Shown in pieces: positions 24,237 to 58,962 of a DNA stretch of 64,000 bases. Each line of letters starts with the position of its first letter. Positions within the stretch are counted from its first letter, which is position 1. Origin of the DNA: Nitrosarchaeum sp. (GTDB lineage Archaea > Thermoproteota > Nitrososphaeria > Nitrososphaerales > Nitrosopumilaceae); assembly GCA_021414105.1 (NCBI GenBank), contig JAIOPB010000038.1, positions 1 through 64,000 of the forward strand. Direction: 5' to 3'. Under the pieces are notes generated by a model, which worked only from the letters and a program-made list of their open reading frames with translations, made no database searches and was not told where the DNA came from. Position numbers and translations under genes: made by a program.

Positions 24237-25463
24237 TTGACAAGAGAGTATCATTATGATCTAGTAATAGTAGGAGGTGGCCCAGCAGGTTCGTCAGTAG
24301 CATACGAAGCATCAAAAAATGGAATTAAGGTTGCGCTTTTAGAGAAAGAAGAAACAATTGCGCAGTCAGTTAGAACCAGTGGAGTTACATGGATACAAAA
24401 CATAAAAGAATTTGGTATTCCAGATGACTGTTATAATCCGATTAAAAATTACTCATTTTGTTCACCAAATAATGAAGTTACAATAAGAGATACAATTCCA
24501 CAAGCTGCAGTTTTAGATGTAAGAAAAACATATCGATGGTTAGCAGAGCAAGCAAAAAATGAAGGTGCAGAGATTTTTCTCAAAACCAACATCAATAATG
24601 TGATAAAAAACAAAGACGGGGATGTTATCGGAGTAAGTGGAACAAGCAAGGAAGGAGAGGTGATATTCCATTCCAAAGTTATCGTTGATGCAAGTGGATT
24701 TTCTTCAACAGTTTCTAGAGCTATGGGGTTTGTAACACAATGGGAAAGATTTGGAGCAGGTGCAGAATACGAGGTAAAAGCTGAAAATGTAGATCAAGAA
24801 ACATGGTGGCTCATGGTGGGTCAGAAATATTCTCCAGCAGGATATGCATGGATTTTTCCTGTAGGAAAAAATATCGTAAGAATAGGAGTTGGAGTTGGAA
24901 AACCAGAATCACAAGTAGATCCTACAGAGCGATTAAAAGAATTGATGGATTCAAAAATTGGTCCAATTAGTAAATTAGGAAAAATTACACCTATCGAATT
25001 TCATTATGGATTAATTCCAAACGATGGATTATCAAGAAAAACGGTATACAATAATTTGATTTTGGTAGGAGATTCAGCAGGTCAAGCTAATCCATTAGTA
25101 TTAGAAGGAATAAGATATGCAATAAAATTTGGAAGAGTTGCAGGAAAAATAGCATCAAATGCAATAAAGTCAGGAAAAACAGATGAGACTGCACTGTATC
25201 CATATGAGGAAAAGTGGAAAAAAGACATTCAAGCAAAAATCAAATCTGCAGGAAAAGTCCAAGATAGATGGATTGGATTATCAGATGAAGAATGGGATAA
25301 TGAATTAGACATAATCAAGGAATTAAAACCTGAGGAATTTTTAGATTTTATTAAAGCAGATTTTGGATTAGCAAGTATGATAAAATTGGCAACACATCAT
25401 CCAAAATTAGCAGTTAGACAGTTATTCAACTTGGTAAAAAGTAAAAACAAGATTGAGAAATAA
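24237..25463 (+). CDS. Geranylgeranyl reductase-family FAD enzyme
   Basis: This flavoprotein of 408 residues saturates isoprenoid double bonds, classically in digeranylgeranylglycerophospholipids of archaeal membranes. It has the FAD motif VIVGGGPAGSSVAYEASKNG (residues 10-29), an ARxxGxx-like SGFSSTVSRAMG block near 155 and the LVGDSAGQANPLVLEGIRYA segment near 275-295. Thaumarchaeota carry several paralogues. Some may act on other chains, including menaquinone side chains, which are saturated in these organisms. TTG start, preceded by no clear Shine-Dalgarno. Confidence 0.88.
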   Translation: MTREYHYDLVIVGGGPAGSSVAYEASKNGIKVALLEKEETIAQSVRTSGVTWIQNIKEFGIPDDCYNPIKNYSFCSPNNEVTIRDTIPQAAVLDVRKTYRWLAEQAKNEGAEIFLKTNINNVIKNKDGDVIGVSGTSKEGEVIFHSKVIVDASGFSSTVSRAMGFVTQWERFGAGAEYEVKAENVDQETWWLMVGQKYSPAGYAWIFPVGKNIVRIGVGVGKPESQVDPTERLKELMDSKIGPISKLGKITPIEFHYGLIPNDGLSRKTVYNNLILVGDSAGQANPLVLEGIRYAIKFGRVAGKIASNAIKSGKTDETALYPYEEKWKKDIQAKIKSAGKVQDRWIGLSDEEWDNELDIIKELKPEEFLDFIKADFGLASMIKLATHHPKLAVRQLFNLVKSKNKIEK

Positions 25464-46765: not shown

Positions 46766-47449
46766 ATGAGTAGTGAAAATCCAAAAGATTTAGTTCCAAT
46801 GTTTTTTACTAATACCGCTAAGTCATATGATAAAATAGTATACTGGACTACGTTTGGGAAAGACAATGTTTGGAAAAATAAAATTCTAGAACATCTATCC
46901 ACTGAGAAAACAGTGTTAGATCTTGCATGTGGTACAGGCATTCTTACAAAACAAATTGCAGACAAAATTCCACAGGCTAAAATCATTGGATTAGACATTA
47001 CGGAGAACTATATTGAAAAAGCAAAAGAAAAATTAAAGTCATATCAAAACATTTCATTTGTAAATCAGGATGCCGAAAAACTAAATTTGGGAAAAAAGTT
47101 TGATTGTATTACTGCATCTTATTTACCAAAATATTGCATATCTGATGTTTTAGTCAAAAATTGTATTGCGCATCTTAATAATGGTGGAAAAATAATTCTG
47201 CATGATTTTACATATCCAAAAAACAAATTTGTAAGAAAAATGTGGAACTTTTACTTTAACATACTTTATTTGGTAGGATTTTTTGTCCCAAATTGGAAAA
47301 AGGTGTTTGTTAGTTTACCTTATCTCATAAGAACCACAGATTGGATAACAGCATATGAAAATACTATGAAAAATAACGGATTGAAGGTTTACAAACAAGA
47401 TTTGACATTTGGAACTTCATCTATTATTGTTGGAACCAAGATTATCTAA
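46766..47449 (+). CDS. UbiE/MenG-like class I methyltransferase
   Basis: This 227-residue SAM-dependent methyltransferase has motif I TVLDLACGTGILTKQI (about residues 49-64), acidic IIGLDITENYIEKAK near 75 and IILHDFTYPKN near 150. The N-terminal MFFTNTAKSYDKIVYWTTFG and the overall layout match UbiE/MenG, which methylate quinone precursors; the post-motif region YLVGFFVPNW fits too. It is convergent with, and overlaps by 33 bp, the UbiC-like gene, which is followed by a UbiA-like gene. Confidence 0.78.
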   Translation: MSSENPKDLVPMFFTNTAKSYDKIVYWTTFGKDNVWKNKILEHLSTEKTVLDLACGTGILTKQIADKIPQAKIIGLDITENYIEKAKEKLKSYQNISFVNQDAEKLNLGKKFDCITASYLPKYCISDVLVKNCIAHLNNGGKIILHDFTYPKNKFVRKMWNFYFNILYLVGFFVPNWKKVFVSLPYLIRTTDWITAYENTMKNNGLKVYKQDLTFGTSSIIVGTKII

Positions 47450-47854
47450 TCTAATTTCTTCTAAAATAGTAAACCACACAATTCCATTGTGAAGTATTTC
47501 GTATTTCCTTAAGACCAAAGTATCATCAGGATTACGATTAAAGGAGATTACATTTCGAGTTGCTTTGATGTTATAGGTATTAAGAATAGTTCCTACTCCA
47601 CGCTTTTTCTTTAAAAGATCAGACACAATAGATTCGGGCAAAACAGTAGAATCAAATTCTACGTATGCTTTAATCACTGGCAATCCATTTGCAATGATTG
47701 CAATCTTTCTCACAAATTGGTGAGGTGTGATAGCGTTTTGTTCTATTACTTCTAAATGGATATTACAATTTAATATCTCACCAAGAACAGTAACTACTTG
47801 ACCTACAGGAGCATCCAATATCTTATTTAACAAATCTTCAGAAACTGTATTCAT
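47417..47854 (-). CDS. Chorismate-lyase-fold protein (UbiC/DUF98 family)
   Basis: This 145-residue protein has the UbiC-like fold (DUF98), with VGQVVTVLGEILNCNIHLEV, FVRKIAIIANGLPVIKAYVEF and the Gly-rich LLKKKRGVGTILNTY. Chorismate lyases release 4-hydroxybenzoate and pyruvate; conserved Arg and Glu near IANGLPVIKA and ILEEIRLDN would sit in the product site. Expected length for UbiC is 160-170, slightly longer than here. It lies 16 bp downstream of the UbiA-like gene on the same strand. Whether it makes 4-hydroxybenzoate is unproven. Confidence 0.72.
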   Translation of the reverse strand: MNTVSEDLLNKILDAPVGQVVTVLGEILNCNIHLEVIEQNAITPHQFVRKIAIIANGLPVIKAYVEFDSTVLPESIVSDLLKKKRGVGTILNTYNIKATRNVISFNRNPDDTLVLRKYEILHNGIVWFTILEEIRLDNLGSNNNR

Positions 47855-47870
47855 ATAATATTATCGTGTT

Positions 47871-48566
47871 TTAAACAATTAAAAGGTGTCTTAATACAAA
47901 AAAGAAAATTGTTCCAAATATTACAATAGAACTAACAAGTTTGAGAATAATTTCTTTTTTGTAAAATATTTCATAAGGTGCATTTTGTTGTTTTAGAATT
48001 TTGTATTTTCTGGAAACGGTTATCAAAATATAGCTTGCAAGACCAGCGATTATAGAAAATATTATCGTTTCAAAAGATATAGAATTTGATTGAATTACTG
48101 CTCCTGCAAAAACAGGTAAAATTCCCCAGGATATGACAAACGAGGCATTATTATGAAATTTGCCATTGAATAATTCAAGATTATATGCAAAAAGAAAAAA
48201 TATTTCGATTGCACCTATTGGAAATAACATCCAAGAATCTAAAAATACATAATACATTCCAATGGAAAATGACAAAATCAGAGAAATGATGGAGGCTAAC
48301 CAGAGATTAGTCCGAGATAGATCTCCCCAAGGTCTTTTCTTACTTCCCAAGGCATCAAGGCAATGTGCAGATATTCCAATTGCAAAAAAATAGAGTAACC
48401 CAATCGACAACAATCTATCAAGACTAGATTCTACTGAAAGAGAACCCCAAATTACAAAAGATATTACCATTCCAGTATAAGGTAAAAATAAAATTCCCAC
48501 AGTCAGTCTAAAATTCCTAGGACCGAATTTTGGAACAAACCATTCTGATAATCTATCGTTTTGCAT
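47871..48566 (-). CDS. UbiA-like prenyltransferase superfamily membrane protein
   Basis: This 231-residue protein has about seven transmembrane helices. SAHCLDALGSKKRPWGDL (residues 67-83) recalls the first Asp-rich prenyl-diphosphate motif of UbiA enzymes, with Asp71 and the Arg-Pro end, but only one of the usual Asp residues. A second Asp-rich motif is not obvious and the protein is short (UbiA is about 290), so this is a divergent member or an inactive relative. Its neighbours (UbiC-like downstream, UbiE-like convergent) support a prenyl-aromatic pathway. Confidence 0.55.
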   Translation of the reverse strand: MQNDRLSEWFVPKFGPRNFRLTVGILFLPYTGMVISFVIWGSLSVESSLDRLLSIGLLYFFAIGISAHCLDALGSKKRPWGDLSRTNLWLASIISLILSFSIGMYYVFLDSWMLFPIGAIEIFFLFAYNLELFNGKFHNNASFVISWGILPVFAGAVIQSNSISFETIIFSIIAGLASYILITVSRKYKILKQQNAPYEIFYKKEIILKLVSSIVIFGTIFFFVLRHLLIV

Positions 48567-56536: not shown

Positions 56537-57706
56537 TTGAACAAACTTGTGTTAAACTCTGAGAGTTTAAACAATGTTTTAGAAAACAAGACAATTTCCA
56601 GAGACGAAATAATACAAATCTACGAAAATTCAAAAAGTAATCCCAGTGAGTTATTTTCAACAGCTCAAAAGTTGAGAAAAAAATTCAAAGAAGAGTCAGT
56701 TACATTTTCAAAAAAAGCATTTTTCAACATTGTAAATTTATGTAAAGATACATGTTCGTATTGTACTTACAAGTCAGAACCTGGTGAGGAAAAAATATCC
56801 TTGATGTCAAAACAAGAAATAAAACAATTACTGAGTCTTGCAAAAAAATACAGATGCGTAGAAGCTTTGTTTGTAACAGGAGAACAACCTGAACAAAGAT
56901 ATCAAGAAGCACGAGATTGGCTAAAAACAAACGGATTCAAATCAACTGTAGAGTATTTGATTCATGCATCAGAATTAGCAATAGAAAGCGGATTGTTTCC
57001 ACACACTAATGCAGGAAACTTGAATAAAGAAGATCTAAAAGAATTGCAAAAAAGCAATGTATCAATGGGCATAATGTTAGAAAATATCAGTGAAAGACTC
57101 ACAAAAAAAGGGATGCCACATTATCTAGCAGCAAGTAAGAGACCAAAAGCACGACTAGAAGTACTAGAGAATGCAGGAGAATTGAGAATTCCAATGACAA
57201 CAGGGATACTATTAGGAATTGGAGAAACACCAATGGAAATCATAGATTCAATTTTGGCAATAAGAAAACTACATGAAAAATATGGAAATATCCAAGAAGT
57301 GATTGTACAAAATTTTCAACCAAAACAAGATACCATGATGAAGAATTTCCCTTCAGCCAATGAAAACTATTTCAAAACAATTGTTGCATTAACAAGGATA
57401 ATCATGCCAAAAATGAACATACAGATTCCTCCAAATTTATCTCCAAATTCATATCATAGTTTTCTATCTGTGGGAATTAATGATTGGGGTGGAATTTCAC
57501 CACTTACACCTGATTATGTAAATCCAGAATTTTCTTGGCCAGAGATTAAAAAAATAGAACAAGACTCAAAGAGTGCAGGGTTTGAACTAAAATGTAGGTT
57601 TCCTGTTTATCCAGAATTTTTTTCATTTATTGGCAAAGAGTTAAGAAATAAGATGAAAGACATTGAAGATGAAGAAGGATTGGTAAAACAGGAGTATTGG
57701 AAATGA
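56537..57706 (+). CDS. cofG: FO synthase subunit 1, CofG (radical SAM)
   Basis: CofG and CofH together make FO (7,8-didemethyl-8-hydroxy-5-deazariboflavin) from tyrosine and a pyrimidine. The 389-residue product has the radical-SAM cluster motif CKDTCSYCTYKSE near residue 71, a GEQPEQ block near 117 and TTGILLGIGETPMEII near 220. TTG start, no ATG ahead of the radical SAM motif. The stop overlaps the cofH start as ATGA, so the two are translationally coupled. Confidence 0.94.
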   Translation: MNKLVLNSESLNNVLENKTISRDEIIQIYENSKSNPSELFSTAQKLRKKFKEESVTFSKKAFFNIVNLCKDTCSYCTYKSEPGEEKISLMSKQEIKQLLSLAKKYRCVEALFVTGEQPEQRYQEARDWLKTNGFKSTVEYLIHASELAIESGLFPHTNAGNLNKEDLKELQKSNVSMGIMLENISERLTKKGMPHYLAASKRPKARLEVLENAGELRIPMTTGILLGIGETPMEIIDSILAIRKLHEKYGNIQEVIVQNFQPKQDTMMKNFPSANENYFKTIVALTRIIMPKMNIQIPPNLSPNSYHSFLSVGINDWGGISPLTPDYVNPEFSWPEIKKIEQDSKSAGFELKCRFPVYPEFFSFIGKELRNKMKDIEDEEGLVKQEYWK

Positions 57707-58962
57707 GTATCAACATAGAATCACTACTTAAAAATTCAGACCCTTTTGTTTCTGAGATTTTAAACAAGGCATTATCAGATAAAGAGATATCAGCACCAGA
57801 AGGATTAAGACTATACAGTGCAACAGAAACAGATTTTCATTTAGTGGGATTGGTTGCAGATGAAATTAGAAAAAGAAGAGTCGGCGATACTGTCACATAT
57901 GTTGTAAATAGAAATATCAATTTTACCAACGTATGCATCAAACAGTGTGGTTTTTGTGCATTTAGTAGAGATTTTAGAGAGGAGGAAGGCTATTTTCTTC
58001 CAACAGATGAGATTGTAAGACGTGCAAAAGAAGCACATCAGTTAGGTGCAACTGAAGTCTGCATCCAAGCTGGCCTCCCACCAGACATGGATGGTGATTT
58101 GTATGAAAATATTTGTAGAGAAATTAAAAAAGAGATTCCAGACATTCACATACATGGATTTTCACCAGAGGAGGTTCTCTATGGAGCAACAAGATCAAAG
58201 ACAACAATTAGAGAATATCTCAAAAGACTCAAAGAATCAGGGGTAAACACTTTACCAGGAACAGCAGCAGAGATTCTAGATCAAAAATTAAGAGATAAAA
58301 TTTCTCCAGGAAGAATAAGTGTGAAAGATTGGATAGAAATAATCAAAACAGCTCATAGTCTTGGAATCAACACAACCTCAACTATGATGTTTGGACACAT
58401 TGAAACATATGAAGACAGAATAAATCATATTGTAAAGATCAGAGAAATTCAAAAAGAGACTGGAGGTTTTACAGAATTTGTCCCACTCAATTTTATCCAT
58501 AGTGAAGCTCCAATGTACAAACATCAATTGTATGAGGGGATAAGACAGGGAGGAAGCGGTAATGACGTATTGCTAACACATGCAATTGCAAGAATTATGC
58601 TAAATAATTACATAGACAATATTCAAATGTCCTGGGTAAAAGAAGGGCAGAAAATGTCACAATTGTTGTTAATGTGGGGAGCAAATGATTTTGGAGGAAC
58701 CTTAATCAATGAAAGCATTTCAACATCTGCAGGTTCCAATCACGGTCAATTGATAAGACCAAAAGAGATAAGAAGACTAGTAAGAGAAATTGGAAGAATA
58801 CCTGCAGAAAGAAACACCAATTACAAAATATTGAAAAAATTTGATACTAGTGATGAATCAGATGATGAATTAGATAAAATTTCAGACTCATCAAAATTTG
58901 GTTCATATGCAGAACTAATCAAGATTAACAAATTCAAATACAAAAATCCAAGGAAAGAATAA
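57703..58962 (+). CDS. cofH: FO synthase subunit 2, CofH (radical SAM)
   Basis: CofH generates the tyrosine-derived partner in FO synthesis. From ATG 57703 the product has 419 residues. Radical SAM motif CIKQCGFCAFSRD is near residue 77, CIQAGLPPDMDG near 120, GTAAEILDQKLRDKISP near 188 and TSTMMFGHIE near 225. The ATG overlaps the cofG stop by 4 bp and follows GGAG; a TTG two codons upstream is less likely. Confidence 0.94.
   Translation: MSINIESLLKNSDPFVSEILNKALSDKEISAPEGLRLYSATETDFHLVGLVADEIRKRRVGDTVTYVVNRNINFTNVCIKQCGFCAFSRDFREEEGYFLPTDEIVRRAKEAHQLGATEVCIQAGLPPDMDGDLYENICREIKKEIPDIHIHGFSPEEVLYGATRSKTTIREYLKRLKESGVNTLPGTAAEILDQKLRDKISPGRISVKDWIEIIKTAHSLGINTTSTMMFGHIETYEDRINHIVKIREIQKETGGFTEFVPLNFIHSEAPMYKHQLYEGIRQGGSGNDVLLTHAIARIMLNNYIDNIQMSWVKEGQKMSQLLLMWGANDFGGTLINESISTSAGSNHGQLIRPKEIRRLVREIGRIPAERNTNYKILKKFDTSDESDDELDKISDSSKFGSYAELIKINKFKYKNPRKE

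Follow-up and report, generated by a model that had tools for sequence, protein, structure and literature searches.

A compact cluster of three genes, encoding UbiE-, UbiC- and UbiA-like proteins, is a real and widely conserved feature of the Nitrososphaeria. We put the chances at about even that it encodes an accessory route to an aromatic membrane lipid, prenylated and methylated and of the benzoquinol or phenol class, which the cells would make alongside menaquinone. The cluster occupies positions 46766-48566 of the window, by which we mean the whole 64,000-nucleotide stretch of DNA that was analysed, and its members are:

46766..47449, + strand: UbiE-like methyltransferase, 227 aa, a UbiE/COQ5-type SAM methyltransferase
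47417..47854, - strand: UbiC-like protein, 145 aa, Rv2949c-like (DUF98), with a predicted chorismate-lyase fold
47871..48566, - strand: UbiA-like membrane protein, 231 aa, a divergent member of the UbiA superfamily

The tight packing described in an earlier, sequence-only reading of this DNA is borne out by the open reading frame coordinates: the convergent UbiE and UbiC genes share 33 bp at their 3' ends, and a gap of 16 bp separates UbiC from UbiA. UbiE lies on the opposite strand to UbiC and UbiA, so the three genes do not form one operon in the window. The nearest loci by sequence are those of Nitrosarchaeum MAGs and the window genome (G000) carries archaeal amoA; the host is therefore an ammonia-oxidising archaeon of the Nitrosarchaeum group. 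Elsewhere in the window, CofG-/CofH-like radical SAM genes adjoin at 56537-58962; they probably serve F420 synthesis, and the second of the pair is ~37% like MqnE/MqnC.

Of the 398 genomes searched in the phylum, 39 have the UbiA-like gene, 30 the UbiE-like gene and 25 the UbiC-like gene. All 30 genomes with UbiE also have the cluster UbiA, as do 23 of the 25 with UbiC (G001 and G420 have UbiC without UbiA), and so the triad proposed from the sequence is indeed co-conserved across the Nitrososphaeria. In 61 relatives the pairwise associations gave Fisher p values of 7e-9 and 2e-6, uncorrected for relatedness. UbiA was followed by UbiC on the same strand in 55 of the 55 loci with UbiC nearby (median gap 24 bp) and UbiE lay within 3 kb in 78 cases, a few of the fetched loci being counted twice in these tallies. 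At least four families of Nitrososphaeria have this neighbourhood, which is therefore not a matter of chance. Its arrangement varies: UbiE is convergent in the Nitrosopumilaceae, the Nitrososphaerales have a co-directional UbiE-UbiA-UbiC, and Nitrosocaldus and its kin have UbiE, an epimerase, UbiA and UbiC in that order, together with a prenyl synthase and a geranylgeranyl reductase. Linkage that persists while order and strand differ between lineages argues for a joint function. The cluster is nonetheless patchy within genera, being present in some members and absent from others (g12, g17). Archaeal-type clusters were also seen on two contigs binned as bacterial, L070 (a Planctomycetaceae MAG, probably mis-binned, at 74% identity) and L129 (a Syntrophobacterales MAG).

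The membrane protein of the cluster is predicted to have the UbiA prenyltransferase fold. Its match to PF01040 (1.1e-5, 25.3 bits) is below the gathering threshold of 34.2, and a direct alignment of its sequence with that of E. coli UbiA was not significant; PF01040 is matched at E <= 1 by 17 of 22 UbiA-like homologues, the best at 6e-11. The structure prediction that the sequence-only reading had suggested as a check gave an AF2 model with a pLDDT of 92.8 and a pTM of 0.90, and its best nine PDB folds are all UbiA-family chains at a probability of 1.00, with TM scores to the query of 0.45-0.58 and a best E-value of a modest 1.4e-3, none falling below 0.001. The family carries the signature AHxxD...PW...YNxE...FH...SWG...SRxYK. 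Absent from it are the two Asp-rich Mg-diphosphate motifs of a canonical UbiA-type aromatic prenyltransferase: the first, NDxxDxxxD, is reduced to AHxxD, with one Asp left, and the second is replaced by SRxYK. The protein had been described from the outset as divergent, which is correct, and as having one Asp-rich motif, which was generous. Invariant polar residues of the family include R5, E8, H68, D71, E131, H138, S185 and K189, and its sequences suggest a conserved alternative active site rather than decay. The nearest UbiA paralogue in the window genome, with 29% identity over residues 74-184, is MenA (1,4-dihydroxy-2-naphthoate prenyltransferase), which keeps NDYWDYKRGID and DHDAD (DHDADKSKGRK) where the cluster protein does not. 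The same genome encodes two heme O synthase-type UbiA paralogues (L157:4205-5113 and L158:4211-5140), the second of which lies ~2.6 kb from a UbiD gene, an arrangement that is the same in G023 (L161). Second UbiA and UbiC copies with in-frame stops and a UbiE gene with one TAG, seen among G393:C1:1196300-1196856, G291:C12:83513-83818, G308:C17:13753-14076 and G224:C1:567081-567755, reflect either decay or assembly error.

Loss of both Asp motifs while other polar positions stay invariant speaks of a function that was changed, not lost. One alternative is that the UbiA-like protein has given up prenyl transfer for another membrane reaction or ligand, and that the cluster yields a small aromatic compound, methylated but with no isoprenoid tail. 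We think this unlikely, if worth keeping in view: the top fold matches are to UbiA-family chains only, in deep lineages the cluster includes paralogues of prenyl synthase and geranylgeranyl reductase, and in some Nitrosopumilus the reductase joins it. Both the prenyl synthase (GGPS) and the reductase (GGR) are found in the cluster at L044, L046 and L118, in Nitrosocaldus and a related lineage; GGR adjoins UbiA-UbiC-UbiE at L055, L066 and L111, where it belongs to a near-universal family (57 of the 61 relatives). A second GGR copy of G038, a divergent one, adjoins the prenyl synthase within its cluster; the sole copy found in G037 has the same position. The sequence-only reading had offered the geranylgeranyl reductase at 24237 as relevant, a link that was rejected: this is a different protein from the cluster-associated reductase, which has no tblastn match in the window and whose orthologue in the window genome is on another contig (G000:C63). 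In Nitrosocaldus-type clusters UbiC and the prenyl synthase are separated by a fluoroacetyl-CoA thioesterase-like (FlK) gene (L043/L044 region, e.g. L044:8561-8944).

It had also been proposed that ammonia-oxidising archaea use the cluster to make the head group of their menaquinone; this, or a role as an alternative MenA/MenG pair, is now highly improbable. Two observations might be taken in its favour: the nearest paralogue of the UbiA-like protein is MenA and, in G043, mqnD, mqnE and mqnC at ~222-226 kb are followed by UbiA-UbiE at 232 kb. (At this locus, L148:6246-9562, the three mqn genes are ~6 kb from the UbiA-UbiE pair.) The head-group role was rejected on distribution and on the existence of separate Mqn and MenA genes. 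Two PF02621 proteins, MqnA and MqnD, take part in the futalosine route. PF02621 was found in 43 of the 61 relatives, with the cluster in a subset, and essentially all of the Nitrosopumilaceae searched have it, even genera that lack every cluster gene; the exceptions (G011, G017 and G036) are incomplete or fragmented assemblies. Most Nitrosopumilaceae genomes have one PF02621 gene; G039, G040 and G046 have two, divergently oriented. MqnE-like and MqnC proteins were checked in two genomes and canonical MenA was found in individual genomes, being in G000 a separate gene with intact motifs. Futalosine genes and MenA are separate from the cluster and occur whether or not an ammonia oxidiser has it; the cluster itself is patchy even in single genera. 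MK-6 is, as far as is known, present in every cultured ammonia-oxidising archaeon that has been analysed, and this, with the patchiness of the cluster, makes the cluster look accessory. Three genomes have a cluster-like UbiA in which PF02621 was not found (G044, G059 and G051, the last only 77% complete). Since G044 and G059 have COX1 as well as the UbiA-like gene, the cluster might make their sole quinone, but this is not decisive, as G045 has COX1 but neither the UbiA-like gene nor PF02621. What stands of the sequence-only reading is a candidate prenyl-aromatic pathway, which agrees with the co-conservation, the folds and the GGPS/GGR association.

The methyltransferase of this putative pathway passes the Pfam profile PF01209 (9e-22); with TIGR01934 (6e-31) it scores 107.5 bits against a cut-off of 158.35, and it falls below the strict curated cut-offs for UbiE/MenG. 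The motif LDLACGTG is conserved, and Y119, K122, Y123, H146, D147 and W193 are cluster-specific invariants. A PDB profile search with the family matched COQ5 (4obw) over nearly its full length (positions 3-225); the other matches were partial, yet other methyltransferases had better E-values than COQ5. Membership of the methyl-plastoquinone (Mpq) system was rejected because the match of the window UbiE to MpqE is weak, at 70 bits against a 335-bit cut-off.

As a single sequence the window UbiC had no Pfam match, and its direct alignment with E. coli UbiC was not significant. The family profile finds AF1396 (2nwi, of the DUF98/chorismate-lyase family) at 9e-12, and PF01947, named in Pfam as chorismate pyruvate-lyase, Rv2949c-like, is matched by 7 of 10 homologues, the window protein itself not being among them. 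Its AlphaFold (AF2) model has a pLDDT of 91.7, and Foldseek returns AF1396 with a TM score of 0.80 and E. coli chorismate lyase with TM scores up to 0.66. Invariant residues are Q39, R49, A63, G88, Y118 and E132, of which R49 and E132 are unchanged in 30 of 30 aligned homologues and align with an Arg and a Glu of AF1396; we take them, by motif and fold only, to be the counterparts of R76 and E155, the catalytic residues of E. coli UbiC. The model agrees with what had been read from the sequence, namely a chorismate-lyase fold, and the catalytic Arg/Glu pair appears to be kept. That the protein is a ligand-sensing (UTRA-like) regulator and not a chorismate lyase is very doubtful: the fold search also gives many GntR/UTRA effector domains, with E-values that beat that of E. 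coli chorismate lyase, but no DNA-binding domain is present in the 145 residues of the window protein, the closest fold match (AF1396) is of the Rv2949c-like chorismate pyruvate-lyase family, and none of the 30 aligned members has lost the Arg or the Glu. Three of four Nitrosarchaeum-type genomes (loci L135-L138, the exception being L137) have a detached UbiC-like gene close to one for a triosephosphate-isomerase-like protein; in G001 the UbiC-like gene occurs without UbiA or UbiE.

The cluster has a second form. In one Nitrosopumilaceae clade, supported on the UbiA tree, a divergently transcribed small cupin-fold gene adjoins UbiA and UbiC is absent from the locus (L034:6541-6936, L036, L037, L042 and 29 other loci). 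The cupin was never found at the same locus as UbiC and has no Pfam or NCBIfam match; it is present in 11 relatives, all with a UbiA-like gene, and in several genomes UbiA and the cupin stand without UbiC or UbiE at the locus. Many cupin-type UbiA loci have a catechol-type O-methyltransferase (PF01596) nearby (L034:2315-2947 and 17 others). The UbiA tree needs only one change to account for the split between UbiC and cupin forms, which therefore counts as a single event. The cupin as a strict replacement for UbiC is an idea weakened both by this and by G002, G007 and G014, which carry the cupin together with a UbiC detached elsewhere in the genome. Where UbiC has gone from the locus, another source or modification of the head group may be in use.

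In the accessory pathway that we favour, the UbiC-like enzyme would convert chorismate to 4-hydroxybenzoate and pyruvate, as its fold and Arg/Glu pair suggest, and the UbiA-like enzyme, on the strength of its modelled fold, would work in the membrane to attach a polyprenyl chain to the ring. The donor would be bound without the usual Asp-Mg2+ motifs, perhaps by a basic patch formed by the invariant S-R-x-Y-K. The UbiE-like protein, which matches the PF01209 family, would C-methylate the ring at a presumptive site, and the chain would be supplied and saturated by the prenyl synthase and geranylgeranyl reductase of the cell, with Nitrosocaldus and the related lineage probably using dedicated paralogues within the cluster. 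Several points count against such a lipid: the metal-binding motifs that define prenyl transfer have been lost in the UbiA-like family, a number of genomes have UbiA and the cupin without UbiC or UbiE at the locus, G001 and G420 have UbiC with no UbiA, and across loci the neighbourhood shows no conserved decarboxylase or ring hydroxylase dedicated to the pathway, enzymes that a quinone would need. A bolder version, in which a UbiA that works without both Asp motifs helps to build a second membrane redox lipid from chorismate (a methylated benzoquinone or prenylphenol with a saturated tail), is possible, and we advance it tentatively. As for the decarboxylase, UbiD lies outside the cluster, elsewhere in G000 (L158) and also in the cluster-negative G023 (L161); the UbiD of L158 is more likely to be the menaquinone decarboxylase.

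Few microbes on Earth are as abundant as the ammonia-oxidising archaea, and menaquinones are in general the only quinones reported from them. From a prenyl-aromatic cluster that is conserved and patchily inherited one would predict a lipid so far unreported, which may be a redox carrier, an antioxidant or a biomarker. The cluster also gives lipidomics a prediction that can be made strain by strain. The UbiA-like subfamily, for its part, would be a test of the extent to which the two-Asp-motif mechanism is needed.

The same three enzyme families serve the ubiquinone route of E. coli (ubiCA), where ubiC and ubiA are adjacent too. In contrast to the E. coli set, the cluster UbiC is of the archaeal DUF98/Rv2949c-like branch, its UbiA is without both Asp motifs, and dedicated hydroxylases, UbiG and a decarboxylase are absent from the cluster, although an O-methyltransferase recurs beside the cupin-type loci. 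A literature search found one paper labelling these genes, in a figure legend: CHLP, GGPS, UbiC, UbiA, RmlB and UbiE are named in Candidatus Nitrosocaldus cavascurensis ICE-2 (PMC5797428, Fig. 8 legend), a gene set with the same partners as at L044 and L118. The legend labels them as cargo of one element, and gives no pathway, active-site analysis or distribution. A 2026 survey of bacterial quinones calls an archaeal update highly relevant (PMC13386864). The methyl-plastoquinone system of Nitrospira (Mpq), also a nitrifier, employs UbiA-, UbiC- and UbiE-like enzymes that are branches of the ubiquinone set, and methyl-plastoquinones are the only quinones found there (PMC12324825, PMC13386864); in the archaea, by contrast, menaquinone genes coexist with the cluster.
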